Source of the DNA: Leucobacter luti | GTDB taxonomy: Bacteria; Actinomycetota; Actinomycetes; Actinomycetales; Microbacteriaceae | Direction: 5' to 3' | Assembly (NCBI RefSeq): GCF_019464495.1 | Contig: NZ_CP080492.1 | Location: 1,674,001 to 1,738,000 of the forward strand | Length of the DNA stretch: 64,000 bases | In this document: piece after piece, positions 1-21,190 of the stretch | Position numbering within the stretch: position 1 is the stretch's first letter | Layout: the number at the start of each line of letters is the position of its first letter | Notes under the pieces: model-generated | What the model was told of the DNA's origin: nothing | What the model saw: the letters and a program-made list of their open reading frames with translations, nothing else | The model's database searches: none | Program-made: the position numbers and the translations under genes

Positions 1-39
1 AGATTTGCACTATTGGCAAGAGGAAAGCACGGGTACCGC

Positions 40-618
40 GTGGCACACGACGAACTGGCACAGCTGGGGCCGCGGCTGCGCGCGGCCAGGCAGGAGCGCG
101 GCTGGACGCTGGAGGAGCTCGCCGGGCGTGCCAGGCTCTCGGTCAGCACGCTGAGCCGCCTCGAATCAGGCAAGCGCCAAGCGAGTCTCGAACTCCTCCT
201 CCCCCTCACACGGCACCTCGGGATCCGGGTCGACGATCTCCTCGAGCCGCACGACCGCGACCCGCGCGTGCGACGACGCCCGATCACGCGCGACGGCCTC
301 ACCATTGCACCCCTCACACACGAGGCGTCCGACGTGCGCGCATTCAAGATCACCTACCACCCCGAAGCTCCCGAGCGAGCACCGCAGGTGCACGACGGGC
401 ATGAGTGGCTCTACGTCCTCTCTGGCCGCCTGCGCCTGACGCTGGGCGAGCAAGAGCTCGTGCTGGAGCGCGGCGAGGCAGCCGAGTTTGACACGACCAC
501 CCCGCACCGCATGCGCGCCGAGGGCGGCCGGAAGGCCGAGGTGCTGAGCATCTTCAACGCGGTGGGTGAGCGGCTGCACTTGCACTCCCACGTGGATCCC
601 GCGCCGGCACCGGCATGA
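40..618 (+). CDS. XRE-family regulator with C-terminal cupin domain
   Basis: Two-domain transcription factor of the HTH_3 plus cupin_2 type. The first ~65 residues form a lambda-repressor-like helix-turn-helix (LRAARQERGWTLEELAGRA, then STLSRLESGKR). The C-terminal ~100 residues form a small beta-barrel cupin (HDGHEWLYVLSGRLRL, later HRMRAE) that in this family senses a small ligand. The GTG at 40 is preferred because AGGAAAG lies about 13 nt upstream. A TTG at 13 is in frame, and the frame stays open to base 1, so a longer N-terminus outside the window cannot be excluded. It converges on the flavin reductase gene across a long inverted repeat. A role in controlling the neighbouring oxidation genes is inferred from position only. 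Confidence 0.85.
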   Translation: MAHDELAQLGPRLRAARQERGWTLEELAGRARLSVSTLSRLESGKRQASLELLLPLTRHLGIRVDDLLEPHDRDPRVRRRPITRDGLTIAPLTHEASDVRAFKITYHPEAPERAPQVHDGHEWLYVLSGRLRLTLGEQELVLERGEAAEFDTTTPHRMRAEGGRKAEVLSIFNAVGERLHLHSHVDPAPAPA

Positions 619-626
619 GCGCAGAG

Positions 627-707
627 CTGACCCCCGAGTGAACTGCTGACCCCTAACTGAAGCGAATATCGCTTGAATTGGGGGTCAGGAGTTCACTCGA
701 GGGTCAG
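627..707. repeat. Long imperfect inverted repeat between convergent genes
   Basis: Arms at 627-653 and 681-707 are each 27 nt and pair at 25 positions (mismatches at arm positions 8 and 19). The 27-nt spacer holds a second short stem, AAGCGA/TCGCTT. Each arm itself contains CTGACCC twice. It lies between the stop of the XRE-cupin gene and the stop of the flavin reductase gene, so a bidirectional terminator is the simplest reading. There is no T-run, and the arms are longer than a normal terminator stem, so a palindromic mobile remnant is possible. Confidence 0.8.
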
Positions 708-754
708 TTGTGAGTTCGGGGAGCGTTGGGGCGGGGCCGCCGGATGCGCACCAG

Positions 755-1345
755 CTAGATCATGTACTCCAGCTCGCGATACGCGCCGCGGTAGAAGAGC
801 AGGGGCGCGCGGCTCGGGTCTGTCGAGACCCCTGCCACCCGCACGAGGAAGATCAGGTGGTCGCCCGCCTCGATCTCTTGCTCGATCTCGCCGGCCACCC
901 AGCCAGTGCCACCGGCGAGCGTCGGCGCTCCGTTTGCCTCGGACGGGAACCACTCGACCCCCTGCCACTTGTCAGTTCCGGATCGCGCGAACTGCCCGCT
1001 GAGGTGCTGCTGCTCGGCACTCAGGAAATTCACCACGATGTTGCGGTGTTCGCGTACCGCGGCGAGACTCTTGGCAGTGCGCGCGATTGAAAACGAGATC
1101 AGCGGCGGATCAACCGAAACGCTGTAGAACGACTGGCAGGTGAAGCCCACTGGGCCGTCCGGGCCACTCGTGGTGATCACTGTGACGCCAGATGCGAAGC
1201 CGCCCATCGCATCTCGGTACACTCGCTGGTCGAATGCGCTGGGGGCCACCGCTGGAGCAGAATCAACCACGGCTGGAGCGGGATTGACCGCAGGGGCTGA
1301 TCCCGCACCCGAAGGCGCGTCCACTTCAATCAGCTCTGCACTCAT
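755..1345 (-). CDS. Flavin reductase-like domain protein (FMN reductase)
   Basis: A 196-aa flavin reductase-like domain protein (HpaC/RutF/SnaC type). These use NAD(P)H to reduce FMN, which two-component monooxygenases consume. Diagnostic stretches are FDQRVYRDAMGGFASGVTVIT, then GFTCQSFYSVSVDPPLISFS, and the C-terminal FYRGAYRELEY. The ATG at 1345 overlaps the stop of the upstream FMN reductase gene by four bases (ATGA), so the two are coupled. The first ~35 residues are Ala/Pro-rich and probably unstructured. It is a likely FMNH2 supplier for the two luciferase-like monooxygenases encoded divergently from 2058. Confidence 0.85.
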   Translation of the reverse strand: MSAELIEVDAPSGAGSAPAVNPAPAVVDSAPAVAPSAFDQRVYRDAMGGFASGVTVITTSGPDGPVGFTCQSFYSVSVDPPLISFSIARTAKSLAAVREHRNIVVNFLSAEQQHLSGQFARSGTDKWQGVEWFPSEANGAPTLAGGTGWVAGEIEQEIEAGDHLIFLVRVAGVSTDPSRAPLLFYRGAYRELEYMI

Positions 1346-1863
1346 GCTGCCACCTCTGCAACCCGCGCCGCACGAGCGAGCAACGGCCCCTCGGTCTCGA
1401 ACCACTCATCGAGCACGGCGGCACGGCGATCAAAGCGCGGTGTGGGGAACGCAAGCCCGCGCGTCGGCACACTCGCCCCCAGCTCCACGAGCAGGGGGCG
1501 CAGCGTGAATTCGACGGCGAGGGCGTGCTCTTCTGAGGCTGTCGTGAACACGGGCACTGCGACCACCCCGGCGAGCCCTCGTGCGGGATAGCGATCCAGG
1601 AACGACTTGAGTAGCCCCGTGTAGCTGGCCTTGTATGTCGGCGTCGCAATGACGGCGATTGCGCTCGTGCGTAGCCGTTCGGCGATGGCATCGAGTTCTG
1701 GCGCCGGCCAGCGGAAGAGATCGGCGGAGTGATCGATCAGGTCGACGGTCGGGTGCAGGTGTGCCCCTGTCTCGGCCGCGATTCTGGCGGCGAGTTCCTC
1801 GGCAATCTGTCTCGTGCGTGAGGCCGGCTTGGGATTGCCGACGATGACGGAAATGTGGGACAT
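1342..1863 (-). CDS. NADPH-dependent FMN reductase (SsuE/MsuE-like)
   Basis: A 173-aa flavodoxin-fold NADPH-dependent FMN reductase (PF03358). Visible motifs are ISVIVGNPKPASRTRQIAE at the N-terminus (phosphate-binding loop) and TPTYKASYTGLLKSFLD in the middle, the typical SsuE/MsuE signature. The start at 1863 is chosen because GGAG lies 6-7 nt upstream and the flavodoxin fold begins right there; in-frame codons extend upstream but encode nothing recognisable. It is the first gene of a two-gene leftward operon with a second flavin reductase and is divergent from the monooxygenase operon. SsuE-type enzymes commonly serve sulfonate- or sulfide-oxidising FMN monooxygenases, which fits the neighbours. 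Confidence 0.85.
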   Translation of the reverse strand: MSHISVIVGNPKPASRTRQIAEELAARIAAETGAHLHPTVDLIDHSADLFRWPAPELDAIAERLRTSAIAVIATPTYKASYTGLLKSFLDRYPARGLAGVVAVPVFTTASEEHALAVEFTLRPLLVELGASVPTRGLAFPTPRFDRRAAVLDEWFETEGPLLARAARVAEVAA

Positions 1864-2057
1864 GGCGCTCCAAACGTGGGTTGCGTGAGTGTTCCACGGT
1901 GGGGTGTCGCGGAGCGGCAACCGGATCTCATCCAGTGCAACTGGAAGCCAGTGTAGGTGCCGTGCTCGCCCGCAACAGATCCGCTGCAACAGAGCGTAAT
2001 GGTCATTTTCCGTCATCTTCTTGCGAGGTTTGCTCCGCAGTCACATAAGTTTGCCGC
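1864..2057. promoter_or_regulatory. Divergent promoter region, flavin reductases / monooxygenase operon
   Basis: This 194-bp gap separates the leftward flavin reductase pair from the rightward monooxygenase operon. Just before the ATG at 2058 there is CACATAAGTTTGCCGC. TAAGTT resembles an actinobacterial -10 (TANNNT) only about 8 nt from the start codon, so the first monooxygenase mRNA may be nearly leaderless. No operator can be named with confidence. Confidence 0.4.
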
Positions 2058-3364
2058 ATGTCTCCCATAACCAAACCCACCACAACGGCGATTCCGTTCA
2101 CCGTCGGTGTTGCCCTCGACGGTGCCGGCTGGCACCCCGCTGCCTGGCGCGATCCGGGCGCGCAGCCTGACGCACTGTTCTCCCCTGAGTATTGGACGGG
2201 CCTCCTCACGGCAGCCGATCACTCCGGCCTCGACTACGTGAGCATCGAGGACGCGCTCACCCTGCAGGGCGAAGCTCGCCACCCGGCGCCCGGCCCCATC
2301 GCGGGGATCGTTTCCGGGCGCTTGGACGCGCTGCTCACCGCGAGCTGGACCGCACCGCGCACGAGCCGGATCGGGATCATCCCCACGGTCACGACTACTC
2401 ACACCGAGCCGTTCCACGTCGCCACCGCGCTCCAGACCCTCGACCACGTGTCCGGTGGCCGCGCGGGCTGGCAGCTCAAGATTTCTGGTGACGCCGCAGC
2501 CGCAGCCGCGTTCGGACGCCGCCCCGCGCCTGAGATCAACCGCGACCGCGTACGTGCCGGGTTGCCGGAACCCGCGCTTACCGAGCTGCTCGACGAAGCT
2601 GGCGACGTCACCGAGGTCGCCAGGTCGCTCTGGGATAGCTGGGAGCACGACGCCATCATTCGCGACGAGGCTACCGGACGTTTCCTCGACCGGGATCGCG
2701 TGCATCACATCAACTTCGAAGGTGAGCATTTCTCCGTCACGGGCCCATCGATCGTGCCGCGCTCACCACAGGGCCAGTTGCCCATCACCCTGCTCGCGCA
2801 TTCCCCCGCGGTCTACGCGCTTGCAGCCCGCGGGGCAGACGTGGTCTTCGTGACACCGGGCACGCAGTCGGCCGCAGACATCATTGGCCAGGTGCGCGCC
2901 GCGGAGCACGCAGCCGCCGCCGACCGCGCAGCGGCTGGTCTCGCGCCACTCCGAATCGTTGCCGATCTGGTGGTCGCGCTCGACCACGGGAGCGAAACAG
3001 GAGGTGCACGGCTCACCAGGCTCGACCGCACAGCGGGAATCCGCTTCGCGAACGAGGGCAGTGACGCCCGCGTTGTTGCCGGATCGGCTGCGTCCATCGC
3101 TGCCGAGATCGCGGCACTGCAGGAGGCAGGCGTCGATGGCGTGCGGCTGCGGCCCCTCACCCTTCCGGCCGACCTCGCGGCGATCACCCGGGACTTGCTT
3201 CCCGTGCTCGCCGAACGCGGGATCCACACCCCAGACCCGAATCCCACTTCGCTCCGCGCTCGGTTTGGTCTCGATCCGGCAGCGAACCGGTACGCCGCGA
3301 GCCCCCAGGAGGCTCCGCCGACCACACCCCTGCCAACACCGCAGCCCAGGAGGTCGCAGCATGA
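2058..3364 (+). CDS. LLM-class FMN-dependent monooxygenase 1 (frame break near C-terminus)
   Basis: Luciferase-like TIM-barrel flavin monooxygenase of ~430 aa. Family features include TALQTLDHVSGGRAGWQLKI, the long insertion typical of the NtaA/SnaA branch, and SIVPRSPQGQLPITLLAH. The reading frame from 2058 runs on to 3437, ending in low-complexity residues. Adding one C to the C-run at 3302-3306 instead gives a natural end at a TGA (3362-3364) that overlaps the next ATG as ATGA. I therefore read the tail as an indel artefact. It is the first gene of the operon, and FMNH2 is probably supplied by the divergent reductases. The arrangement recalls YxeK/CmoO of B. subtilis S-alkylcysteine salvage. 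The exact substrate is not readable from sequence. Confidence 0.75.
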
Positions 3365-4781
3365 GCACGAAGCAGCCAGCCCGCCAGCCGGCACCACGCC
3401 AGGTCCACCTGGTCGCGCACTTCCCCGGCGTCAATAGCACAACGGTGTGGACCGACCCGGACTCGGGGAGCCAGATCGACTTCGAATCATTTCGCCGCTT
3501 CGCGCAGACCGCCGAGCGCGGCCGCTTCGACTATGTGTTCCTCGCCGAGGGGCTCCGGCTCCGCGAGCACGGTGGACAGATCCACGATCTCGACGTCGCC
3601 GGCCGCCCCGCAACGCTTGCGATCCTCGCTGCCATGGCTTCGGTGACCCGCAATATCGGGGTCGTCGGCACACTCTCCAGCACCTTCAACGAGCCCGTCG
3701 AGCTCGCCCGTCAGCTCGCGACGCTCGACCACCTCTCCGGCGGTCGCGTCGGCTGGAACGTTGTCACCTCCTCGGACGCATTCCACGGCGGCAATTTCCG
3801 CCGCGGTGGCTTCCTGAACCACGCCGATCGCTACACACGCGCCGAGGAGTTCGTGTCGCTCGCAAAGCAGCTCTGGGATTCCTGGGGCCGCGGCGCAATC
3901 GTCGCCGATCGCAGGCGCGGCGTCTTCGCTGATCCGGATCGCGTGCGCGGTGTGGTCCACCGAGGCCCACAGTTCGAGGTGGCAGCCACCAGCACGGTGC
4001 CACGCTCGCCGCAGGGCTATCCGGTCATCGTGCAGGCGGGTGACTCACCTGCAGGCAGAGACTTCGCTGCAGCCAATGCCGAGGTGATTTTCTCGCGCCA
4101 CACGAGCTACGACGACGGCCGCGCGTTCTACCGCGATGTGAAGGGTCGCCTGGGCGCAGTGGGCCGCACTGAGGAGTCGCTGTTGATCCTGCCCGGCGCA
4201 ACGTTTGCGCTCGGGGACACCGACGCCGAGGCCCGCGAGCGCTCCCGTGAGATCTCACTGCAGCAGACCAGTCCACAGACTGCAGTGGCCTGGATCGAAG
4301 CCGTGTGGGGCCGCGAGCTCCCGGGCCTCGATCCCGATGGCTCGCTACCAACGGTTGACCCTGGCACCGGCGAGCAACGCCAGGGTCAGGTCTCTACCCA
4401 GGTGGCGGATCGCGTGGCCCGCGCTGATCAGCTCAGGGCGCGAGCACGCGATGAGGGGCTGACCCTGCGCGAGCTCGTGGCGGCGGAGACCGCGGACCAC
4501 TCGTTCGTTGGCTCCCCGAGACCGTTGCAGCGGAAATCAACCGCTACGTACAGGGGCGCGCCTCTGACGGCTTCGTGCTCGTGCCGCACCTCACCCCCGG
4601 CGGGCTCGACGAGTTCGTGGACCGGGTGGTGCCGCTGCTCCAGGAGCGCGGCGTGTTCCGTTCGGAGTATCCCGCGGCCGAGGGTGGCGCGGCGAACCCG
4701 ACGCTGCGCCGCACCCTCGGCCTGCCGAAGCCGCCGAAGCCGGGGCGCGTCGCCCGAGCCGCGAGCGAGGTCAGCGCATGA
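3361..4781 (+). pseudogene. NtaA/SnaA/DszA-family FMN monooxygenase 2 (one frameshift)
   Basis: Second luciferase-like monooxygenase, ~473 aa when repaired, of the NtaA/SnaA/DszA (nitrilotriacetate, pristinamycin, sulfone) subfamily. Typical stretches are VHLVAHFPGVNSTTVW at the start, ATLDHLSGGRVGWNVVTS, TSTVPRSPQGYPVIVQAG, and the C-terminal LVPHLTPGGLDEFVDRVVP. The frame breaks at about 4516-4520: CCGAG is read where CCGGAG would give the expected GSPETVAAEI. One missing G explains it, and the downstream frame ends at 4781 in an ATGA overlap with the acetyltransferase. It is therefore most likely functional in the organism. By analogy with B. subtilis CmoJ/YtnJ, it could cleave a C-S bond of an N-acetylated S-substituted cysteine; this is inference. 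Confidence 0.75.
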
Positions 4782-5347
4782 CCGGGCCGGTGTCAGCTCC
4801 ACCCATCACGCAGCAGGCACACACGATTCGGATCGTGCGTCCGAGCGACGCGCTCGCGCGCCCGCTCCTGGAAGATCTCGAGCGCGAGTACGACGCCCGC
4901 TACGGCGTCGAGGTGTTTGGCGAGACGGCATCCGTCGAGTTGAACCGCTACCCGGCAGAGCTGTTCGGGCGCCGCGCGGCACCTTTCTGGTGCTGCTCGA
5001 GGGCACCGAACCCGTCTCGGGCGGCGCGTTCATGCCGCACGCTGATGACGCCACCGCAGAGGTGAAACGAGTATGGACCCGCGCGGATCGACGCGGCCTC
5101 GGCCTCGCACGAATCGTGCTCGACGCCCTCGAACGCGAAGCGGTGCGGCTCGGGTACGCGCGGATCTACCTCACCACAGGGCCGCGCCAGCCGGAGGCAG
5201 TCGCGCTCTACCTGAAATCCGGCTACACCCCCGCTACGACCAGACACTGAGCGCCGACGAGATCGGCGTGCACCCCTTGATAAGCAACTCACCCCGCTTC
5301 AGGGGCCGATCGCCAGCACGGCGGCAGAACAGGACCCACGCTCATGA
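4778..5347 (+). pseudogene. GNAT-family N-acetyltransferase (three single-base breaks)
   Basis: GNAT acetyltransferase of ~190 aa when repaired. The acetyl-CoA loop reads TRADRRGLGLARIVLDALE, followed by RIYLTTGPRQPEAVALYLKSGY, the standard C-terminal GNAT beta-strands. Three one-base losses are inferred: near 4970 (giving ELFGPPRGTFLV), near 5230 (GYTPRYDQTL) and near 5276 (HPFDKQL). With these repaired the stop is 5345-5347, again overlapping the next ATG. All three sites are in or next to C, G or T runs. In the yxe and ytmI operons of B. subtilis a GNAT enzyme in the same position N-acetylates S-alkylcysteines before oxidation. The same role is proposed here but not proven. Confidence 0.65.
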
Positions 5348-6428
5348 CGCTCACGACCGACTCCCCGGCACCGACCCGGGGACCGCCGGGCCGGGTACGG
5401 CCGGGCCGGGAACGCCCGGACAGCAAACGCCCACACCCAGCGATGGAGCGCCTGCCGCGATCGTGCCCCGCTCCGCACAGCCCAGCAAACTGAGTGTGGT
5501 TCCGCTCCGTCACTGGTGGCGCTGGAGTTTGAGCGCCGTTGCAGTCTTCATCCTCGCGCAGCTCGTGTGGACGTTCTTCACAAATCCGCAGTGGCGCTGG
5601 CCGGTGTTTGCCGAGTACTTCTTCAACGAGGCGATCCTCCGCGGCCTGTGGCTCACGCTCTGGCTCACTGCGGTGTCCTCCGTGATCGGCTTTGTGCTCG
5701 GCGGGCTCCTCGCCCTCGCACGGCTCTCCGGCTCGGCTCTCCTGAACTCCTTCGCGTGGAGCTTCATCTGGTTCTTCCGCTCGATCCCCCTGATCGTGCA
5801 GCTCGTGATCTGGTACAACCTGGGCTACCTGTTCCCCACACTCGGGATCGGCTGGCCGTTCACCTACGACTTCTGGCTCATCGAGTTCGATACAGTCCGT
5901 CTGCTTTCGGCTTCAGTTGCCGCGATCCTCGGGCTTTCGCTGCACCAGGCCGCGTACTCCTCTGAGATCATTCGCGGCGGGCTCCTGTCGGTCGATCACG
6001 GTCAGCTTGAGGCTGCCCGGGCACTCGGGATCCCCCGCGGCAGGCGGTTCTTCCGGATCATGCTGCCGCAGGCGGCCCGCGCGATCCTGCCCAACGCGTT
6101 CAACGAGGTCATCGGCCTCCTGAAGGGCACCTCGGTCGTGTTCATCCTCGCGCTGCCCGAACTGTTCTACACGGTGCAGGTGATCTACAACCGCAACCAA
6201 CAGGTCGTCCCACTGCTGCTCGTCGCCGCGGTGTGGTACACGATCTTCACGACTGTGCTGAGCGTTGCGCAGTACTACATCGAACGCCGCTTCGCCAGGG
6301 GCGCAGCCAGAGAGCTGCCGCCCACCCCGATCCAGCGCGCCCGCGCGGGTCTCCGCCGCCTCGTCTCCCGCCCTGCCCGTCCGCTCCCACCCGCCTCGAT
6401 CGCGGCCGCCGCCGAGCACGCACGTTAG
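5344..6428 (+). CDS. Polar amino-acid ABC transporter permease (HisM/TcyL type; N-terminal frame break)
   Basis: Inner-membrane subunit of a polar amino-acid ABC importer. It has a Pro/Gly/Thr-rich cytoplasmic N-terminus of about 55 residues, then about five to six membrane helices (LSAVAVFILAQLVWTFF, GLWLTLWLTAVSSVIGFVLG, and others). The coupling loop is HQAAYSSEIIRGGLLSVDHG then QLEAARALGIPRGRRFFRI, the EAA motif that docks on the ATPase. The coupled ATG at 5344 is out of frame with the body. One missing G in the run near 5386-5389 would join them; otherwise translation would have to start downstream, for example at the GTG at 5497. It is followed nine bases later by its ATPase gene. It is a single permease, so it probably acts as a homodimer. 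Confidence 0.85.
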
Positions 6429-6437
6429 GACCCCACT

Positions 6438-7280
6438 GTGTCTGCACTGACCACCCAAGCGGCGCCCACCGCACCTGCCAGCACGTCCAGCTCACCGGCC
6501 TCAGCGCCGGTGCCACCGAAGACCGGACTCGTCGAAATCTCAGGCGTCCACAAGTCCTACGGCGACAATGAGGTGCTCCACAACATCTCGCTCCGGATCG
6601 AACCCGGCCAGGTGGTCACTCTGCTCGGCCCCTCCGGCTCCGGGAAATCGACTCTGCTGCGCGCGATCAACCACCTCGAAACCATCGATGCCGGCTCGAT
6701 CACCATTGACGGGGATTTCATCGGCTATGAACGCCGCGGTGAGCGACTGTTCGAGCTGCGGGAGAAGGAGGTACTCCAGCGGCGCACCCGCGTCGGCATG
6801 GTGTTCCAGAACTTCAACCTGTTCCCGCACCTCACCGCGATCGAGAACATCATCGAGGCCCCGCTCGGGCTGAAGCGTGTGAACCGGGCACAGGCACTGG
6901 AGCAGGCTCGCACGCTGCTGCAGCGGGTGGGCCTCGCCGATCGCGCGGATCACTACCCGCGGCAACTCTCCGGCGGGCAGCAGCAGCGTGTTGCCATTGC
7001 GAGGGCACTCGCCCTGGAGCCCGATGTGCTGCTGTTCGATGAACCAACGAGCGCGCTCGATCCCGAACTCGTCGGCGAGGTACTCAGCGTGATCCGGGGC
7101 CTCGCCCACGGCGGCACGACACTGATCATCGTCACACACGAGATCGGTTTCGCCTCCGAGATCGCCGACCATGTCGTGTTCCTCGACGCCGGCAACGTGA
7201 TCGAGCAGGGCCCGCCCGAGATCGTCCTGCGCGCACCGGAGCAGGCGCGCACCCAGGAGTTCCTCGACTGGGTCATCTGA
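6438..7280 (+). CDS. Polar amino-acid ABC transporter ATP-binding protein (GlnQ/TcyN type)
   Basis: A 280-aa ABC ATPase. Walker A GPSGSGKS is at residues 64-71, the Q-loop is MVFQNFNLFPHLTAIEN, signature LSGGQ is at 177-181, Walker B LLFDEP ends near 203 and the switch His is in TLIIVTHEIGF. The length and the ...LFPHLTAIENI... region place it with GlnQ/HisP/TcyN polar amino-acid importers. The GTG at 6438 has AGGA seven bases upstream. The first ~28 residues (Ala/Pro/Ser-rich) are an unusual extension. It energises the permease encoded immediately upstream; two binding lipoproteins follow after a 126-bp gap. Confidence 0.92.
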   Translation: MSALTTQAAPTAPASTSSSPASAPVPPKTGLVEISGVHKSYGDNEVLHNISLRIEPGQVVTLLGPSGSGKSTLLRAINHLETIDAGSITIDGDFIGYERRGERLFELREKEVLQRRTRVGMVFQNFNLFPHLTAIENIIEAPLGLKRVNRAQALEQARTLLQRVGLADRADHYPRQLSGGQQQRVAIARALALEPDVLLFDEPTSALDPELVGEVLSVIRGLAHGGTTLIIVTHEIGFASEIADHVVFLDAGNVIEQGPPEIVLRAPEQARTQEFLDWVI

Positions 7281-7337
7281 TCCGGAGCCGGCTCCGGCAG
7301 CGCGATGTTCGATCCAGCAGCCGGGATCCCGATCGTG

Positions 7338-7379
7338 CACCCCACCACGTCTGCACCCCACCACGTCTTCACCCCACCA
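7338..7379 (+). repeat. 16-bp tandem repeat, about 2.6 copies
   Basis: CACCCCACCACGTCTG at 7338-7353 is repeated at 7354-7369 with one change and again partially (10 bp) at 7370-7379. It sits in the 126-bp gap between the ATPase and the first binding-protein gene, just upstream of that start at 7407. It could be a local slippage product or a regulator or mRNA-stability element. Confidence 0.75.
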
Positions 7380-7406
7380 GCCTCACCCACACAGAAAGCA
7401 TCACTC

Positions 7407-8453
7407 ATGAACACATCAGTCGCACCACCAACCCGTGCAGGCATTCGCCGCACGCGCCGCGTCGCAGGGGTCGCGCTCGCCGGCCTCACGCTCACCGCAC
7501 TGCTCGGCCTGACCGCGTGCAGCGCAGTGTCCAGCGCCGCGGACGATACCGCAAGCGGCAGCTCAGGATCCGACTCAAGCACCGCGGAGTCACCCTTCGA
7601 CCTCACCACCGCAAACGTCGACGGCAGGCCGCGCATCGATCCGGTGCCTGAGGCCGTCGAGGCGCTCAAGGCGAGCGGTTTCAAGCCGATCCAGGCCGGC
7701 AAATTCACCGTCGCACACTCCGCGTACGAGCCGCCGCTCGGATTCCTCGCAGAGGATGACAACACCACGCTGCTCGGCGTTGAGCCGGATATTGCGCAGC
7801 TCGTGGCAGACGGTCTCGGCCTGGAGTACACCCCGGAGAATGTGGCGTGGGCCGATTGGCCGCTCGGCGTCGAATCAGGAAAGTATGACGCGGTTGTCTC
7901 GAACGTGACCGTGACGGAGGAGCGCAAAGAGCTGTTCGACTTCGCAATCCACCGCGACGACGTGCTCGCCTTTGCGGTGAAGGCCGACAATGAGATCGAC
8001 TCGATCACCGAGGCCAAGGATGTCGCTGGTCTCCGCGTCGTGGTGGGCAGTGGCACCAACCAGGAGAAGATCCTGCTCGACTGGTTTGCTGAAAACGAAA
8101 AGGCTGGGCTTGAGCCGGGTGAGCCGGTCTACTACGAAGACAATGCCGCGGCGCAGCTGGCGCTCGCTTCCGGCCGAGTCGACGCGATCTTCGGCCCGAA
8201 CCCGACCGCCGCGTTCGCCGCAGCGCTCACCGGAGAATCAAAGGTCGTCGGCACGCTCAACGGCGGCTTCCCGCTGAACGCGCAGATCGGTGTCACGACG
8301 AAGAAGGGGAACGGTCTCGCTGAGCCTGTCGCTATCGTGCTCAACAGCATCATCGAGAGCGGGGTCTACGCTGACGCGCTCGAGCGCTGGGATCTCAGCG
8401 ATGAGGCCGTGACCGAATCGCTCGTCAACCCACCTGGGCTGCCGAAGCCATGA
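7407..8453 (+). CDS. Amino-acid ABC transporter substrate-binding lipoprotein 1
   Basis: A 348-aa SBP_bac_3-type solute-binding protein. The signal peptide carries twin-Arg-like basic residues followed by a lipobox LTACS, so the mature protein is probably anchored by a lipid-modified Cys. The binding domain contains GVEPDIAQLVADGLGLEY, WADWPLGVESGKYDAVVSNV, TEERKELFDFA and VGSGTNQEKILL, the standard polar amino-acid binding fold. The ATG at 7407 is chosen over an in-frame ATG at 7305 because the latter would place 34 repeat-encoded residues before the signal peptide. The stop overlaps the ATG of a close paralogue (ATGA). Its ligand is unknown; the operon suggests a sulfur-containing amino acid. 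Confidence 0.88.
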   Translation: MNTSVAPPTRAGIRRTRRVAGVALAGLTLTALLGLTACSAVSSAADDTASGSSGSDSSTAESPFDLTTANVDGRPRIDPVPEAVEALKASGFKPIQAGKFTVAHSAYEPPLGFLAEDDNTTLLGVEPDIAQLVADGLGLEYTPENVAWADWPLGVESGKYDAVVSNVTVTEERKELFDFAIHRDDVLAFAVKADNEIDSITEAKDVAGLRVVVGSGTNQEKILLDWFAENEKAGLEPGEPVYYEDNAAAQLALASGRVDAIFGPNPTAAFAAALTGESKVVGTLNGGFPLNAQIGVTTKKGNGLAEPVAIVLNSIIESGVYADALERWDLSDEAVTESLVNPPGLPKP

Positions 8454-9487
8454 GGACTCTGACACGAACCACGCGCCTCGCGCTGACCGCGACCTCGCTG
8501 CTCGCAGCGCTCACCCTGGTGTCCTGCGCCGCAGTCATCACCGACGACGAGCGGGCTGCAAGCACGGACACCGGCTCCGACACCGCGTCCGATTCGGACA
8601 CCGCAGCCGCTGCCGCCGTCCCCGAGTTCGATCTCACCACGGGCAGCCTTGATGGCCGCCCACACATCGATCCGATCCCCGCCGCCGTTGCGGCCCTCGA
8701 GGAGAGCGGCTTCCAGCCAATCCAGGCTGGCAAGCTTACGGTCGCGCTCGGCGGGGCAGGAACTCCTCCCACGTCGTTCTTCGCCGAAGACGATGCTCAG
8801 ACCATTATCGGCAGCGACCCCGATCTGTCCTCGCTCATTGCCGAGGGGCTGGGGCTCGAGTACACCCCGGAAAATGTGGCGTGGGCGGACTGGCCGCTCG
8901 GTATCGAGTCGGGCAAGTATGACCTCGCGCTCACCAACATCGGGGTCACCGAGGAACGCAAGGAACTGTTCGACTTCGCCACGTATCGTGACGCCGTGAT
9001 GGGCTTCCTCGTGGCCGACGGCAGCGAAATCACCGAGATCTCGAAGCCGGAGGATATCTCGGGGCTGAAGGTGATTGTCGGCAGCGGCACGAATCAGGAG
9101 AAGTTCCTGCTCGACTGGATCGCGCAGAATGAAAAAGCGGGGATCGCGCCTGGCGAGGCCGTCTACTACGAAGACAACGCTGCGGGCCTGCTCGCGCTCG
9201 GATCCGGCCGCGCCGACGTGAGTATCCAGCCGTACTCGCTCGCGAAGTTCCAGGAGCAGACGCTCGGGGAGACGCGCGTGGTTGGCAAGTTCAACAGCGC
9301 GTTCCCCGTCACCGGCCAGGTCGGCGCGGCCACCGCGAGAGGCAGCGGCCTCGCTGAACCTGTCGCGGTGGTAGTGAACGAGCTGATCGAGACCGGTGTC
9401 TACGATGAGGTTCTCACGCGCTGGGGGCAGGGTGATGAGGCGATCACCGAGTCGCTCGTGAACCCTGCTGGGTTGCCGAAGCCATGA
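8450..9487 (+). CDS. Amino-acid ABC transporter substrate-binding lipoprotein 2
   Basis: A 345-aa tandem paralogue of the preceding gene. It shares ENVAWADWPLGIESGKYD, GVTEERKELFDFA, VGSGTNQEKFLLDW and the end ESLVNPAGLPKP. The signal peptide ends in lipobox LVSCA. The presumed ligand-pocket region differs from copy 1 (GGAGTPPTSFFAEDDAQ against SAYEPPLGFLAEDDNT), suggesting a shifted ligand preference. It is translationally coupled on both sides by ATGA overlaps. Two binding proteins feeding one permease/ATPase pair mirrors TcyJ/TcyK of the B. subtilis ytmI operon. Confidence 0.88.
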   Translation: MRTLTRTTRLALTATSLLAALTLVSCAAVITDDERAASTDTGSDTASDSDTAAAAAVPEFDLTTGSLDGRPHIDPIPAAVAALEESGFQPIQAGKLTVALGGAGTPPTSFFAEDDAQTIIGSDPDLSSLIAEGLGLEYTPENVAWADWPLGIESGKYDLALTNIGVTEERKELFDFATYRDAVMGFLVADGSEITEISKPEDISGLKVIVGSGTNQEKFLLDWIAQNEKAGIAPGEAVYYEDNAAGLLALGSGRADVSIQPYSLAKFQEQTLGETRVVGKFNSAFPVTGQVGAATARGSGLAEPVAVVVNELIETGVYDEVLTRWGQGDEAITESLVNPAGLPKP

Positions 9488-11556
9488 GTGCGCCGATCCG
9501 GATCGCCTGCATCGGTGCTGGGCCCGCCGCGGTCATGCTGCTCGAACGAATCACGGCCAATCACCAGGCCGTGGCTCCCGGAGCACAGATCGAGGCGCAC
9601 CTCATCGACCCGCATCGGCCGGGAGGCGGCCGGATCTGGCGCAGAGAGCAGTCTCCGCTGCTGAAGCTCAACTCCATGCTCGAAGACGTCGCGTTCTTCA
9701 CAGATGCGTCGTGCCAGCTCGCTGGCCCCGTTGCACCCGGTCCGTCATTTGCGGACTGGGTGCGCGGGGTGCGCCGCGGCGAGTATCCCTATCCGAGCGG
9801 CACCGACGCGGTGCTGGATCGGGAGCTCGCCACGATTGGTGCCCGTGATTTCCCGACGCGGCGCCTGAACAATGCCTATCTGAGCTGGGCGTTTCACGAA
9901 ACGCTGCGGCGGGCAGGGGAGACGCTCCAGGTCACTTGGCACCGTGATACGGCCACCGCGGTGGCCGGAGACGGGCCCTTTCGTATTCAGCTCGAGTCTG
10001 GGGAACACCTCGCGGCGGATCTGGTTGTGTACGCCGTCGGCCACAACGGGACAGAAGCGACCTCCGAATCGCGGGCGCTCGCTGGGTTTGCGGCGGATCA
10101 CGGCCTGAACTATGTTGCGCCGGCCTTTACGGCCGACGTTGATCTCGACCACGTGCCGGCGGGATCCGACGTGATCGTGCGCGGCATGGGGCTTGCGGCC
10201 ATTGACCTGGTGGTGCTGTTGACCGAGGGCCGCGGCGGCCGCTTCGTCGCGGGCGACGGCGGGGCTCTGCGCTACCTGCCGAGCGGGCGCGAGCCGGTGC
10301 TGCACCTGGGTTCCCGCCGCGGCGTGCCGTACCGCTCGAAGATCACGAGCCAACTGGCGGGAGATCCCGTGACGCTGGAGTATCTGGGGGCCGCATTCCA
10401 CGCCGGACTCGCGGACCGCGAGGTGCGCGGCGAACTGCTGGACTTCGAGCGCGATGCGTGGCCGCTCATCGCCGCCGAGCTCGTCACCGGGTACTACCGG
10501 GAACTGTTCACCGGCCACCCCGAGCGGGTCGCGGTCTCGTGGGAGCGCTTCGCACCACTGCTGCGCGCGGAGCTGGCAGCGAAGCGAGGCTGGGACTCCC
10601 TGGCCTCGCCGATCTGGTGCGCGCACACGTGCCGGATCCGGCGGATCGCTTCGAGCTGGAGGCCTTCGATCGCCCGCTGTCGCGGGTGGCTGACGGTGAT
10701 ACCGTGCCCGGCACGGGACCTGGGGGCGTGCCGGGCTCGGGACTTGGTGACGTGCCGGGCACCGTTCCCAGTGATGCCGTGAATGATCGGGTGCGGGCGC
10801 ACATCGGGCGTGACCTGCGCGATCGCACGACGCAGGCAGGAAGTGCGACGCAGGGGCTATTCCTCACGGCACTGCACGTGTATCTGTCGCTGGCAGAGGT
10901 GCCGGCGAGTGCCTGGAACGCTGAGTCGCACGCGTGCGCTGCCCGGCAGATGGCACACCTTTTTCAGCTACATCGCGAGCGGCCCACCAGGGCATCGCTT
11001 AGAGGAGCTGCTGGCACTCGCTGACGCCGGAGTGGTGCGCTTCCTCGGAGCGGATGTGCAACTCGCGGCCGATGTGACCCGCGGCGTGTTCACCGCGAGC
11101 GGTTCGGCGGTCGTCGCGGATGAGCCCGGGGCGGGCGAGTCCGGGGCGGGCGCCGCCCGAGGTGCGCGGGCGCAGGTCTCTGCGCGCACGCTGATCGACG
11201 CGTGGCTGCCGCAGTCGCGCGCGGCCGAGAGCGACAATCCGCTGCTGCGACACCTCGTCACGAGCGGGCGCGTGCGCGAGGTCGCGGTGCCTGGCGGGGA
11301 GGGTACGCAGGCGACCACCGGGCGGCTGGAGGCTGCCCTCGACGGCAGTCTCGCGGGCGCCCCGCAGCAGTTTGCGCTCGGACCGTTCGTAGAGGGGCCC
11401 ACCGGAGGCGCCTTCACGCGGCCCGGGCTCAACTCGCTCCCGTTCCGGGTGCACGATCGCTGCGCGCGAGCGATTCTCGTGGCTGCCGCCGGGCTTCGTG
11501 CGGCCGAGCTGGCGGCGGATCCGGCACCGGCACTTGCGGCCATGGTGCGTCTGTGA
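9484..11556 (+). pseudogene. FAD/NAD(P)-binding protein, copy 1 (two frame breaks)
   Basis: Large flavoprotein of the NAD_binding_9 (PF13454) type, ~690 aa when repaired. The N-terminal dinucleotide fold is IACIGAGPAAVMLLERI; later parts include VIVRGMGLAAIDLVVLL, RYLPSGREPVLHLGSRRGVPYRSK and the C-terminal NSLPFRVHDRCARAILVA. The frame breaks near 10,602-10,606 (one base lost; restores SLGLADLVRAHVPDP) and near 10,960-10,964 (one T too many; restores AHLFSYIASGPPGHRL). An intact homologue lies at 21191-23305 with the same architecture. It starts in an ATGA overlap with the second binding-protein gene, so it belongs to this operon. The family's reaction is unknown to me; a flavin-dependent redox step is a reasonable guess. 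Confidence 0.75.
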
Positions 11557-11580
11557 AACTCCGGCGGCCGGATGCGAAGC

Positions 11581-11651
11581 CGAGCGGACCACACGGTCTC
11601 GAGCAGACCACTGTTCTTACGCCGAGAAAGTGTTGAAAAGTGGTCCGCTCG
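11581..11651. repeat. 12-bp perfect inverted repeat with nested stems
   Basis: CGAGCGGACCAC (11581-11592) pairs perfectly with GTGGTCCGCTCG (11640-11651). Inside are GGTCT/AGACC and CACT/AGTG short stems, and another GTGGTCCG copy follows the right arm. It begins 25 bp after the end of the FAD protein gene, so a terminator role is plausible despite the long loop. Confidence 0.65.
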
Positions 11652-11748
11652 AAGAGCTGTGGTCCGGTGTGGCGTGGGGCCACATACACGCCCGGGGCCT
11701 GAGGGCGGGCGGGGGGACTACGCGATGAGAGTCGAGCTCAGCACGGGG

Positions 11749-11814
11749 ATTCGAGCTCGCGCAGGAAAGAATCACGGGATGCTTCCTGTGTGAGCTCGAA
11801 TTTCCTGCGTGAAG
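11749..11814. repeat. Palindromic intergenic repeat, copy A
   Basis: Arms 11749-11767 and 11783-11801 pair at 17 of 19 positions around a 15-nt loop. The 30 nt at 11785-11814 (beginning CCTGTGTGAGCTCGAATTTC) match 50838-50867 at 25 of 30 positions. Both copies lie between convergent gene ends. It has no coding potential and looks like a REP-type dispersed element. Confidence 0.7.
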
Positions 11815-11952
11815 TGCAACGGCCTGCAGCCGCCCGAGCTCCACGCGGCGACTTTGATGAGACGCGCAGCAGCAGCAGGAGCAGCAGCTGTAGCTACAGC
11901 AGCATTTCGAATCTTCACACACCGCTGGTGTGAGATATTGCGAACACTCGCC

Positions 11953-12462
11953 CTACTCTCCGGCGGCGTAGGACTCCGCCCAGGCGCGAACGCGAGCTGT
12001 GCTCTCCTCTTCAGAGAGGTCTTCAACACGGGTCATGATCGACCAGCGCACACCGAAAGGGTCTCGGATGCTCGCGAAACGATCCCCCGAGACGAAGTCT
12101 GCAACGGGCTCGCGAACGGTGGCCCCTGCCGCGACTGCTGCAGCGACGGTGGCGTCCACGTCCGGCACGTACAGCGCGAGCGAATAGCAATCGTCGTCAC
12201 CGCTTGGCGGCGCGACGAGGTGATACTCGGGCATCGGCTCCCCCAGCTGGAGATGCCCCATGCCGAAATCGAGCTCAGCGTGCGCCACCACGCCGCCGAA
12301 CTCGGTGACATCGACGACGCGGGCACCAAAGATGGTGCGGTAGAACTCGATCGCCTCGGCGGCTCGCGCAATGGCGAGGAACGGGGTGAGGCTGGTCGCA
12401 CCATTGGGGCGGCCGTTGGTCGTGTGCGCGCCGGTCGCGGCGCGGGTCTCGTGTGTGCTCAT
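11953..12462 (-). CDS. VOC-family (PhnB/glyoxalase-like) protein
   Basis: A 169-aa VOC superfamily protein of the PhnB/DUF1428-like subgroup. Core stretches are LTPFLAIARAAEAIEFYRTIFGA, AHAELDFGMGHLQLGEPMPEY and RDPFGVRWSIMTRVEDLS, the last being the family's usual C-terminal strand. The ATG at 12462 is preceded by GGTGGGGAC. The upstream gene is divergent (AraC type, start 12535), with only 72 bp between starts. VOC proteins range from resistance proteins to dioxygenases; the specific activity cannot be told here. Confidence 0.85.
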   Translation of the reverse strand: MSTHETRAATGAHTTNGRPNGATSLTPFLAIARAAEAIEFYRTIFGARVVDVTEFGGVVAHAELDFGMGHLQLGEPMPEYHLVAPPSGDDDCYSLALYVPDVDATVAAAVAAGATVREPVADFVSGDRFASIRDPFGVRWSIMTRVEDLSEEESTARVRAWAESYAAGE

Positions 12463-13493: not shown

Positions 13494-14240
13494 TCACACT
13501 CCGAGACTGACGGCCTCACCGCTCGGCCCGCGCAGCGTCAGGCGGTAGCCGGGATCCTCGCCGGGCTCGCCTCGCAGCACCCGGGCAACACCGGCGCCAA
13601 GGCCCAGGGCCGCGAGCTCGCGCTCCAGCCGCTCGGCAGCCGCCGGATCAGGCTCAACGCGCGCGAATTCCAGCAGTTCAACGACCGGATCGGTGCTTTC
13701 GCCTGGGTGCCGGGTGGCACCCCAGTCGATCAGGAACGGCAGCTCCGGCCTCGCCGCCTGCTGGCCATCGGCTCCCAGGGTCAGTCGCCACTCGAGCAGC
13801 GTGCCGTCCGGCGCCAGCCGCGACAGCTCGCGCACCGGGCCAAGCTCCACGCCGGCGGCGTGCGCCAGCGCCACGGTCTCCGCGATCCGCGGAGGGTGCA
13901 CCGCGTAACTGTGCACCCACGGCTCAGCGGCTGCACCGCACGATCCGATGCCGAACACGGCTGGCAACTCAGGTGACGCGCGATCCGGATCCGGGCCAAT
14001 CAGCTCAAGGTACTGCGGCCCGCGCGCGCCAGCAATGCTGAGCGCGACGAGCGCGTTGGCGCTCCCCGTGGGGTGCGCTCCGCCTGCAGCTGCCCGCACG
14101 CCCGTGAGCTCGGCAAACCAGTCGACCAGGTGCGCCAGATCAGGGCCAGCAACCACCACGTGATCAAGCAGCCCTGGCAGCTCTGCCAGCCCGGACGCGC
14201 CGGATCCACCGACCCCGCTCACCCCAGCTCCGCCCATCAC
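13494..14240 (-). CDS. Glyoxalase-like domain protein (Glyoxalase_3 type)
   Basis: A 248-aa VOC-fold protein of the Glyoxalase_3 type: LLDHVVVAGPDLAHLVDWFAELTG at the start, GPQYLELIGPDPD in the first module and RLTLRGPSGEAVSLGV at the end. An N-terminal Gly/Ser-rich stretch of 18 residues precedes the domain. It overlaps the upstream CMD/peroxidase gene by four bases, so it is the distal gene of the ABC transporter operon that reads left from 20962. A role in handling the product of an oxidised substrate is inferred from operon membership. Confidence 0.78.
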   Translation of the reverse strand: MMGGAGVSGVGGSGASGLAELPGLLDHVVVAGPDLAHLVDWFAELTGVRAAAGGAHPTGSANALVALSIAGARGPQYLELIGPDPDRASPELPAVFGIGSCGAAAEPWVHSYAVHPPRIAETVALAHAAGVELGPVRELSRLAPDGTLLEWRLTLGADGQQAARPELPFLIDWGATRHPGESTDPVVELLEFARVEPDPAAAERLERELAALGLGAGVARVLRGEPGEDPGYRLTLRGPSGEAVSLGV

Positions 14241-15613
14241 TGCCCCGCACGCCGCGCGGGCACCTGCGGCTCCCCGAGCGACAGCATCAGGCGGTTTGCC
14301 CAGTTGAAGAACGCGGCCCCGTTGATCACGTCGACGACCTCTCCATCGTCAAGGCCAGCCGCGCGCAGCTGCTCGATCTCGCCGGTGCCGAATCGCAGCG
14401 GCGTATCCGTCAGCGCCACTGAGGCCGCGACCACCGCGTTCCACACCGGGTCACCGAGATCCGCGCCCACACCGTCGTCAAGCAACCGCTGGACCGTCTC
14501 GCCGCGACCAGACTCTCGCGTCGCCGCTGCCGAGTGTACCGAGGCGCAGAACACACAACCGTTGTGGCGCGAGGCCGCAGTGGCCGCCAACTCGCGCTCG
14601 GCGCGGCCGATCCCGTCGGTCACCGTAAAGAAGATGTCGAGGTCGGTGAGCGTGCGCGCCTTCAGGGCTGCCGGATCGCGCGCGAGCAACCGGAAGTACG
14701 GCATCTTCGCGCGCGCGGGCTCGATCAGCGCGTCCAACTGCTGCGCCGTCAGGTCTGCCTCAGCAACCGGTTCGAGCCACGGCACCCAGCCCAGGCCCTC
14801 CTGCGTGAACCGCTCAGGGCGAGCAAGATCGGGGTACGCGTGGATCCCGGCAGGCAGCTCGGCAGGCTCGGACCCACCGGCCGCAGCAGGCGCCGGATCA
14901 GCGCCGCCCTCGCCCGCGCCACCCTCGCCCACGGCGACGGCCGAAGCGGCACTCGGAGCAGCTGTCGCGGTCCCGGCGAGCACGCGTAGCCCCCATGCCG
15001 CGCGCAATTGGAAGGCGAGGAACGACACGAGCTGCGACAGTGTCACGATGTCGTCGGCCGACCACCCGGCGTTCACAAGCTTCGCGAGATCCGTCTCACG
15101 GGATTCACGCGGCCGGAACACGAGCCCGTGCGTGTGCGCAAGCGCCGCAGCGAGACGATCCCCCACCGCAGCGGTGAGCTCAGCGTCTGGCGTCCAGCGC
15201 ACGGCGGGTGTGCTTTCGTCGCGCAGCGCGGGCTCGCGGTACGCCCCAACGGGTCCGTTCGTGCGCGCTCCAACAGCCGCCGCGCGCAGCGGCTCAACGA
15301 GTTCAGCGGCCTCGTCCCGCAGCACGTCGACAGTGAAGTCGATTGCGTCGGGGAACTCGTGCAGCAGCGCAACAAATGCCGCGACCGCGTAGCGCTCGCT
15401 GAGCGGGAAACTGCCCGGCTCCTCCGGTTCGAGGAGCGCGACGAAACTCGCCTGCGCGTTTTCCCTCGCCTGCGGCCGGCGGTCCCGGATCGCGGCGAGC
15501 CGGCTCCCCGGCGCGATCCCCGCAAGCAGATCGATGAGATCGGCCTGGGCATGCGTCCCGGGGCCACCAGCCCCGGCCTCGGAAGAAACGGCGGCGGCAT
15601 TCTGCTCTGTCAT
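14237..15613 (-). CDS. CMD-domain / alkylhydroperoxidase-domain fusion protein (Avi_7170 + Avi_7169 types)
   Basis: A 458-aa protein with two halves. The N-terminal part (DLIDLLAGIAPGSRLAAIRDRRPQ) resembles the CMD-domain Avi_7170 family. The C-terminal part, from about residue 270, resembles the Avi_7169 alkylhydroperoxidase family. A CxxC with a nearby His (NGCVFCASVHSAAA) matches the AhpD redox centre. A low-complexity Ala/Gly/Glu linker (about residues 220-250) joins them. The two families are usually separate neighbouring genes next to peptide-type ABC transporters and luciferase-like monooxygenases, so a fusion is notable. It lies 21 bp downstream of the ABC ATPase gene. Confidence 0.75.
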   Translation of the reverse strand: MTEQNAAAVSSEAGAGGPGTHAQADLIDLLAGIAPGSRLAAIRDRRPQARENAQASFVALLEPEEPGSFPLSERYAVAAFVALLHEFPDAIDFTVDVLRDEAAELVEPLRAAAVGARTNGPVGAYREPALRDESTPAVRWTPDAELTAAVGDRLAAALAHTHGLVFRPRESRETDLAKLVNAGWSADDIVTLSQLVSFLAFQLRAAWGLRVLAGTATAAPSAASAVAVGEGGAGEGGADPAPAAAGGSEPAELPAGIHAYPDLARPERFTQEGLGWVPWLEPVAEADLTAQQLDALIEPARAKMPYFRLLARDPAALKARTLTDLDIFFTVTDGIGRAERELAATAASRHNGCVFCASVHSAAATRESGRGETVQRLLDDGVGADLGDPVWNAVVAASVALTDTPLRFGTGEIEQLRAAGLDDGEVVDVINGAAFFNWANRLMLSLGEPQVPARRAGQ

Positions 15614-15634
15614 GGGGTCCTTTCAGGGATCAGA

Positions 15635-17425: not shown

Positions 17426-18291
17426 GCGGAATCTCCTCCTCGGATTGCCTGGCTCAGGCGGTTCGTGGCGAGCACAATAGCGACGACGACAACACCGGGA
17501 AGCACAGTGAGCCACCATGCCGTTGCGACATAGTTGCGGCCCTCTGCAATGAGCAGGCCCCACTCCGGTGTGGGCGGCGGTGCACCATAGCCGAGGAAGC
17601 CGAGTGTCGAGATCTGCAGGATCGCGGATCCGAGCTGCAGTGCCGCGAGCGCGATCACCGGGGTGAGCGAGTTCGGGAGAATATGGCGCCACAGGACACT
17701 GGCGAAGGTGCCACCGGATCCATACGCGGCCTCAACGTACTCGCTGACGCGCACGCTGACCACCTGTGACCTCGCTAGGCGGGCGAACACCGCGATCGAC
17801 GTCACACCGACAGCGATCGCCGCGTTCGTGGTGCCGAAGCCGAGCAGAATCACGATCGTGAGTGAGAGCAGAAGGGCCGGGATCGCGAGCAGCACATCGA
17901 CAAGGCGCATCAGGATCTCATCGAGGAAGCCGCCGACGGATCCGGCGAGCACACCGATCGTGGTGCCGATCACGAAGCCGACAGCGACGGCGACGATCGC
18001 GCCAACGATCGACTCGGATGCACCGAAGATCACGCGCGTGTAAACGTCACGCCCCGTCGCATCGGTGCCAAACCAGTGTGCGCCACTCGGGGCTTGCAGC
18101 GCAGGGCCGACCGTCTCAGTGGGGCTGAATGAGGTGAACAGGCCAGGCGCGATCGCCCAGGCGAGCCCAAGGACGATGACGAACACCGGGAGCGCGAAGC
18201 GGAGCCAGGTGATAGAGCGCTCGCGGCGCCAGAACACCTGCGTGGTGCGGGGGCCAGCGCCGAGCTGCCGCGTCGGTCGTGTGAGAGTCAT
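17422..18291 (-). CDS. Peptide/nickel-type ABC transporter permease (DppC-like)
   Basis: A 289-aa permease with a cytoplasmic N-terminus and about six helices (FALPVFVIVLGLAWAIAPGLF first). HWFGTDATGRDVYTRVIFGA is the hallmark DppC loop, and the coupling region is VRVSEYVEAAYGSGGTFASVLWRHILPNSL. It overlaps both neighbours by four bases. It forms the permease pair with the DppB-like protein encoded upstream. Confidence 0.9.
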   Translation of the reverse strand: MTLTRPTRQLGAGPRTTQVFWRRERSITWLRFALPVFVIVLGLAWAIAPGLFTSFSPTETVGPALQAPSGAHWFGTDATGRDVYTRVIFGASESIVGAIVAVAVGFVIGTTIGVLAGSVGGFLDEILMRLVDVLLAIPALLLSLTIVILLGFGTTNAAIAVGVTSIAVFARLARSQVVSVRVSEYVEAAYGSGGTFASVLWRHILPNSLTPVIALAALQLGSAILQISTLGFLGYGAPPPTPEWGLLIAEGRNYVATAWWLTVLPGVVVVAIVLATNRLSQAIRGGDSA

Positions 18292-19302: not shown

Positions 19303-19309
19303 CCCGCAC

Positions 19310-20962: not shown

Positions 20963-21190
20963 GGATTCAATCTCCGGGTGGTGGGTGATTCGCACTAAAC
21001 ATGCGCTGCGCTTCTACGAGGTATTGCGAAAGGTTATTGTTCCACGCGGAGCGCTCCGCACACAATCCGAGCGAGACGCGCGCCGTCACACTGCGTAATC
21101 GTGGGGGTAGCGCGGATCAGGGTCTCAGCTCTTCCAAGTTAGGCTTATAGCAACCATCATCAAAACGAAAGTGACGCGGACCCCGCCACC
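20963..21190. promoter_or_regulatory. Divergent promoter region with GCGGAGCGCTCCGC palindrome
   Basis: This 228-bp gap lies between the divergent binding-protein gene and the second FAD/NAD(P)-binding gene. A perfect 14-bp palindrome, GCGGAGCGCTCCGC, is at 21046-21059 and is flanked by ATTGT/ACAAT, extending the symmetry. It is a good candidate operator for both directions. TTATAGC near 21146-21152 could be part of the rightward -10. Confidence 0.5.

Follow-up and report, generated by a model that had tools for sequence, protein, structure and literature searches.

A Leucobacter operon for the possible salvage of S-substituted cysteines, encoding a predicted FzmM-type flavin monooxygenase

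What an actinobacterial operon that combines flavin monooxygenases, an acetyltransferase and an amino-acid importer might break down is the question raised by positions 755-11556 of a 64-kb stretch of the Leucobacter luti genome (a single contig of 3.41 Mb; NZ_CP080492.1, positions 1,674,001 to 1,738,000, hereafter the window). An initial annotation had likened this operon to the Bacillus clusters for S-modified cysteines, proposed that it salvages sulfur, and singled out a large flavin adenine dinucleotide (FAD)- and NAD(P)-binding protein as a novel part. We consider it quite possible, if somewhat short of probable, that in intact relatives the operon serves the uptake and salvage of an S-substituted cysteine or of a closely similar sulfur-containing amino acid, with the FAD enzyme replacing the Bacillus enzyme CmoO.

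The FAD protein and its operon partners

The FAD protein is encoded by the last gene of the operon (9484-11556, plus strand; PF13454). It is distinct from the Bacillus set, as had been claimed, but it is not of an unknown kind: as judged from its sequence relationships, it is an FzmM-type class B flavin monooxygenase, a divergent member of the FzmM/CreE group. Intact relatives, from which both fold and alignment were taken, show full-length homology to the L-aspartate N-hydroxylases FzmM and CreE (8CP2, 8CP5) and the same three-domain fold, consisting of FAD, NADP and helical domains (8CP2). In an alignment of nine rows (A1), the equivalents of the catalytic residues W51 and N62 are invariant (W57 and N68 in the numbering of relative L016; 9/9 rows), and the equivalent of R577, which belongs to the aspartate entry chamber, is also kept. 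In contrast, most residues of this chamber are lost (R276, R416 and N413 are not kept), as are R409 and R412 of the sulfate site, where R266 is replaced by Lys, the register of the helical domain being moderate at these positions. The equivalent of R13, likewise in the chamber, is Ala in five of the nine rows (four Leucobacter and Microbacterium gubbeenense) and Arg in the other four. The gene also sits in a catabolic context of luciferase-like monooxygenase (LLM), ABC transporter and GNAT genes, unlike those of FzmM and CreE, which belong to natural-product biosynthesis.

After 8CP2, the fold matches of the FAD protein include bacillithiol disulfide reductase and thioredoxin reductases. Its nearest named relatives are from Leucobacter; in two loci from other families of the order it is fused to a further domain, a GNAT domain in L034 (4624-7101) and a PF03807 Rossmann domain in L035 (12392-15091). 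The window holds a second PF13454 protein about 10 kb from the first (21191-23305, plus strand), which is intact (704 amino acids), FzmM-type (8CP2 match, E 3.4e-71) and 29-36% identical to the operon family; its gene overlaps an SDR-like open reading frame (23298-24023, named by eye).

Both LLMs (PF00296, plus strand) are best matched by the NtaA/DmoA family TIGR03860. LLM2 (3361-4781) is broken in the window by a frame change near 4515-4518; its counterpart in relative L018 has YtnJ/MoxC as its top PDB match (E 1.4e-78), followed by 3sdo, 7e36 and DszA (1.6e-68 to 3.9e-68). YtnJ we take to be CmoJ, and by similarity to this nearest solved structure LLM2 is predicted to be CmoJ-type. CmoJ acts on the N-acetyl-S-alkylcysteine sulfoxide formed by CmoO, breaking its C-S bond (PMC10863075). 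LLM1 (2058-3437, with L018 homology stopping at 3290) is a divergent member of the NtaA/DmoA family, scoring 217.8 bits with TIGR03860 for a cut-off of 279.7. A CmoO-type LLM was not found: TIGR03558, the MsnO8 family to which CmoO presumably belongs, is absent from the NCBIfam matches of LLM1 and is the best match of neither LLM. The S-oxygenation step thus lacks its usual enzyme, and the FAD monooxygenase lacks an assigned step; we infer that the two belong together. The same logic is found in the 4S pathway, where S-oxygenation by DszC is followed by C-S cleavage by the LLM DszA, the latter being among the PDB matches of LLM2; DszC is a two-component enzyme dependent on reduced flavin mononucleotide (FMNH2), and not of class B.

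Between LLM2 and the FAD gene lie, all on the plus strand, a GNAT N-acetyltransferase gene (4778-5250), with its domain present by Pfam and in comparison with L018 but broken here by a frame change near 4951-4966, and the genes of a polar amino-acid ABC importer. The permease (5427-6428; PF00528) has an open frame that is longer upstream and a true start that is uncertain, and the ATPase (6438-7280; PF00005) has TcyN as its best NCBIfam match; for both, the best matches are cystine systems at scores below cut-off. The matches of the two substrate-binding proteins, SBP1 (7305-8453, with L016 homology from about 7407) and SBP2 (8450-9487), both PF00497, are not specific. Two reductase genes lie on the minus strand at the other end: an HpaC/HsaB-like flavin reductase (755-1405; PF01613; homology in relatives spans 758-1252), which likely supplies FMNH2, and an SsuE-like NADPH-dependent FMN reductase (about 1345-1863; PF03358), whose open frame extends to 2016 and whose counterpart in L017 begins at the equivalent of 1863. 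Pfam thus confirmed every gene that the initial annotation had named. The ATGA overlaps said to join almost all of them are found at SBP1/SBP2 (8450), SBP2/FAD (9484) and LLM2/GNAT (4778-4781), but do not extend to almost all genes: the reductases are divergent, and the LLM1 frame overruns the start of LLM2 by about 77 bases.

The likeness to the Bacillus clusters holds for the acetyltransferase, the LLMs, the polar amino-acid ABC transporter and its two binding proteins, and with the B. subtilis ytm/ytn operon it extends to the FMN reductase and to the pairing of LLM2 with YtnJ. The differences are that the operon has an FzmM-type FAD monooxygenase where ytm/ytn has a CmoO-type LLM, and that it contains neither an M20 deacetylase gene, an absence noted at the outset and borne out by Pfam for the operon genes, nor the glutaredoxin-like gene that ytm/ytn presumably includes; its relatives often have a DUF1684 neighbour. 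By family, a TIGR03860 LLM with an FMN reductase would also fit the nitrilotriacetate and ethylenediaminetetraacetate monooxygenase operons, whose LLM acts on aminopolycarboxylates. The B. subtilis yxe/scm locus for S-(2-succino)cysteine also clusters an acetyltransferase, an LLM and an ABC transporter, and is defined in PMC9706529 by at least three of YxeK, YxeL, YxeMNO, YxeP and YxeQ. Set beside that definition, our operon has the LLM, GNAT and ABC functions by family, which does not imply orthology to YxeK, YxeL or YxeMNO; unlike yxe/scm it has two LLMs and a FAD monooxygenase and no YxeP-like M20 gene, and no YxeQ match appeared among its Pfam results, YxeQ not having been looked for by name. 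Among titles and abstract openings of the open-licence PMC literature, subscription papers lying outside this scope, we found no description of a FAD-LLM-GNAT-ABC cluster.

Conservation and neighbours in related genomes

In a survey of 36 Leucobacter genomes with SBP1 as the query, the locus was present in 15 (strong match, E < 1e-130). These congeners share the gene set and, for the most part, its order, and relatives of the locus occur in other Micrococcales and in Streptomycetaceae. Gene content was compared in 20 relative loci. All ten gene types were found in eight of the fetched loci (L016-L022 and L026), while in the remaining ones a reductase (or both) or one SBP was missing, or the locus ran into a contig edge. 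The order is rearranged in several loci (L021, L023, L025), yet the genes remain clustered, a sign that they function as a unit; L034 and L035 keep the LLM pair, the transporter and the FAD protein in a different order.

Among named genomes, we took the best 80 loci ranked by FAD-protein similarity and counted neighbours up to 12 kb away from that gene; as 34 of these loci are from Microbacterium, the 80 are not independent. An LLM of the LLM1/LLM2 type was present in 67 of them, and an LLM lay no more than 300 bp from the FAD gene in 37. SBP and ATPase genes were each found in 46 loci, the permease in 44, GNAT in 37 and an oligopeptide ABC transporter in 24-25. An SsuD-like LLM was nearby in 10, some of them without the LLM pair. 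A 4.25-kb contig labelled Stenotrophomonas maltophilia (L090) carried a Microbacteriaceae-like FAD protein (50%) and an LLM, and is perhaps contamination.

Genes of sulfur metabolism adjoin the locus in a few relatives. In Compostimonas (L107), a MetY-like gene begins 14 bases after the FAD gene and is followed by a PatB-like C-S lyase on the opposite strand, MetF and MetE; MetB, MetY-like, MetE and MetF genes lie past GNAT in Arthrobacter cheniae (L115), MetE and MetF are found in A. agilis (L117), and a MetY-like gene in Leifsonia (L116). The closeness of these genes in a few relatives is suggestive of a sulfur link. M20-like genes, sought with seven of the nine M20 places of the host genome as queries, matched in only 8 of 130 relative loci, seven of the matches being over 6 kb away from the FAD gene and the eighth (L127) directly after it; an M20 deacetylase was accordingly rejected as a general neighbour.

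DUF1684 is a recurrent partner of FAD-protein loci in relatives. It was found in 32 of the 80 named loci, at most 500 bp from a core gene in 19, and in none of 20 random 20-kb stretches of the host genome, which served as the background control for neighbours. In one sample of 394 genomes from the class, the FAD protein (E 1e-30 or better, paralogues included) was present in 66 and DUF1684 in 143, and DUF1684 lay within 6 kb of the FAD gene in at least 12 of the 66 (G041, G096, G129, G209, G263, G271, G312, G317, G320, G406, G412 and G441). The host orthologue is about 475 kb from the operon and is 59-75% identical to the Leucobacter copies that are near it; this gene adjoins a GNAT-like open reading frame (L197:9511-11105, named by eye), and the same two genes flank the operon in some Leucobacter loci, e.g. 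L066. A Cx7C cysteine pair is invariant in 17/17 aligned DUF1684 proteins. A fold search gave only haloarchaeal DUF1684 structures at E < 0.001, and for the Haloferax volcanii member a thiol-relay role has been proposed from the Cx7C motif (PMC9426492).

A possible pathway and its rivals

In the pathway that we tentatively propose for intact relatives, uptake of the compound would fall to the ABC importer with its two lipoproteins, and the GNAT enzyme would acetylate its amino group. The FAD protein, as a single-component class B monooxygenase, would then oxygenate the sulfur, the step performed by CmoO in Bacillus, and LLM2, with FMNH2 from the divergent reductases, would cleave the oxidised C-S bond as CmoJ does, a role suggested by its nearest structure. 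LLM1 might act at another step or on another substrate. Reduction of the sulfenic product would follow, perhaps by the DUF1684 protein, and an M20D amidohydrolase from another part of the genome would remove the acetyl group of N-acetylcysteine. The host genome has two M20D amidohydrolases away from the operon, one of them nearest to an N-alpha-acyl-glutamine aminoacylase (6slf) with a weaker likeness to YxeP. B. subtilis has three redundant N-acetylcysteine deacetylases (PMC12757645), which makes a supply in trans plausible.

Sulfur salvage is the favoured reading, with partial support from the functional set, the LLM2-YtnJ match and the few sulfur neighbours. Several observations weigh against this pathway. 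The solved relative of the FAD protein oxidises nitrogen rather than sulfur, the best PDB match of LLM1 is 3sdo, named as a nitrilotriacetate monooxygenase, SBP1 is similar to glutamine and general amino-acid binders, and the GNAT match is generic. The sulfur neighbours are confined to few lineages: Cys/Met pyridoxal phosphate enzymes occur in 7 of the 80 named loci and in none of the 20 control stretches, too few to decide, and MetE in 3 of the 80 is not above the control (MetE/MetF in 1 of 20). The window lacks DUF1684, as do 48 of the 80 named loci. In the 34 Microbacterium loci an oligopeptide transporter (18) is seen more often than an amino-acid binding protein (11) or GNAT (3). No sulfur regulator was identified for the operon, and Rfam gave no riboswitch near it, the only match in the window being a tRNA and all those of a further search being at chance level. 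Finally, several operon genes are interrupted in the window's own genome, if these breaks are not sequencing errors.

The most serious rival, although we think it unlikely, is N-hydroxylation of an amino group by the FAD protein. The resulting N-hydroxy, oxime or nitro amino acid would be acylated by GNAT and broken down by the LLMs, and the operon would degrade a nitrogenous or sulfur amino acid of an unusual kind by a nitro/oxime route. Aerobactin-type hydroxamates are formed by an N-hydroxylase/N-acyltransferase pair, and the FAD-GNAT fusion in L034 would suit such a pair. The related enzymes FzmM, CreE and PcxL are moreover all nitrogen oxidisers (PMC10404684). Against this stand the altered positions of the aspartate chamber listed above (R276, R409, R412, N413, R416 and the R266 to Lys change), and the importer, the C-S-cleaving kinds of LLM and some of the sulfur neighbours, which fit S-oxidation. 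If the enzyme does prove to be an N-hydroxylase, it would indicate a nitro or oxime catabolic route of which we know no description. It is improbable that the operon is instead a close functional copy of yxe/scm or ytm/ytn, with LLM1 performing S-oxidation and the FAD protein an accessory that, for example, regenerates reduced flavin or thiols; the shared functional set, the second LLM and the disulfide and thioredoxin reductases among the fold matches are consistent with this, but the FAD protein aligns from end to end with a monooxygenase and retains the catalytic Asn, and LLM1 has no MsnO8-family match. The operon may well work like the Bacillus pathways; we do not class it within them because a CmoO-type LLM and an in-operon deacetylase were both looked for and not found. 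More improbable still is the degradation of an aminopolycarboxylate or metallophore (nitrilotriacetate, ethylenediaminedisuccinate or a nicotianamine-like compound) through cleavage of C-N bonds by the LLMs. The 3sdo match of LLM1 and the TIGR03860 assignment of both LLMs would fit such a substrate; LLM2 being nearest to YtnJ/CmoJ, and the MetY, PatB, MetB and SsuD-like neighbours of some relatives, speak against it.

A broader form of the salvage reading, to which we give less credence than to the pathway itself, is that a widespread actinobacterial module recruited the nitrosuccinate-synthase (FzmM/CreE) family from natural-product N-oxidation to sulfur amino-acid catabolism, as an S-oxygenase that readies thioethers for CmoJ-like C-S cleavage, with DUF1684 as a sulfenate- or disulfide-reducing partner. 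Around the FAD enzyme, which was the basis for selecting the loci, lineages would differ in their LLMs (a CmoJ-like pair or an SsuD-like one) and in their importer (for polar amino acids or for oligopeptides). Two families so far without an assignment, the large PF13454 proteins ('YdhS' in databases) and DUF1684, would gain a role open to testing, and the operon suggests that a group of soil actinobacteria recycle organosulfur via a single-component FAD monooxygenase where Bacillus employs a two-component LLM.

Interrupted frames, the upstream block and flanking genes

Compared with the proteins of intact relatives, three genes in the window contain four frame changes that the initial annotation had not noticed, one each in LLM2 and GNAT and two in the FAD gene (about 10578-10605 and 10888-10940). 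The latter is therefore split into an open frame at 9484-10782 and another at 10783-11556, separated by DNA that is out of frame. The relative loci have a single open frame over the tested part of LLM2, GNAT and the FAD gene (L029 ends with its contig); frame breaks are nevertheless not unique to this genome, since the ATPase of relative L021 is itself split over three frames. As these three proteins are interrupted, the pathway is probably off in the window's strain, unless the breaks are sequencing errors.

We also searched for frame-switch signatures with a codon-usage frame model, a detector of low sensitivity that found two of the four known operon breaks under its looser rule. Under this rule there were two signatures in window positions 1-12000 (9.6 kb of coding sequence) and four in 12001-64000 (36 kb), compared to 11 in 268 kb of the host genome and six in 264 kb of relatives; the stricter rule gave three in the window, six in 267 kb of the host genome and one in 262 kb of relatives. 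The host genome is thus richer in signatures than its relatives, and the operon denser than the genome average. The host rate, about 2-fold (looser) or 6-fold (stricter) that of the relatives, favours some genome-wide sequencing error, and the operon here may be either decaying or poorly sequenced. Signatures also occur outside the operon, e.g. at 18319-19263 (OppB region) and 58818-59970, and this stretch of the assembly may hold more indels.

A conserved non-coding block (1894-1933), a candidate operator or promoter element, lies in the gap between LLM1 and the divergent FMN reductase; in it, a 21-mer (1894-1914) precedes a GGAT-N3-ATCC inverted repeat (1923-1933). The perfect 21-mer occurs once per genome in 10 of the 15 genomes searched, upstream of this operon only, and the five genomes without it are those whose loci lack the divergent FMN reductase. 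Being single and confined to the operon, it provides no link to other sulfur genes, and the idea of a regulon was dropped; at three mismatches there were 10 matches, compared to 12 for a reversed control.

A regulator gene at 13-618 was rejected as an operon member, having no match in the 20 relative loci. On the other side, the operon is adjoined by a minus-strand cluster (13494-20995) with a VOC-like open reading frame (named by eye), a fused CMD/alkylhydroperoxidase (TIGR04029 and TIGR04030), Opp-type ABC subunits and a TIGR04028 binding protein. This cluster was likewise rejected as part of the system, as its CMD gene and the SDR gene at 23298-24023 were unmatched at E 1e-25 in the 80 named loci; its OppA is 32-39% identical to oligopeptide binding proteins of those loci. 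Several of the families in the cluster carry only hypothetical NCBIfam names.

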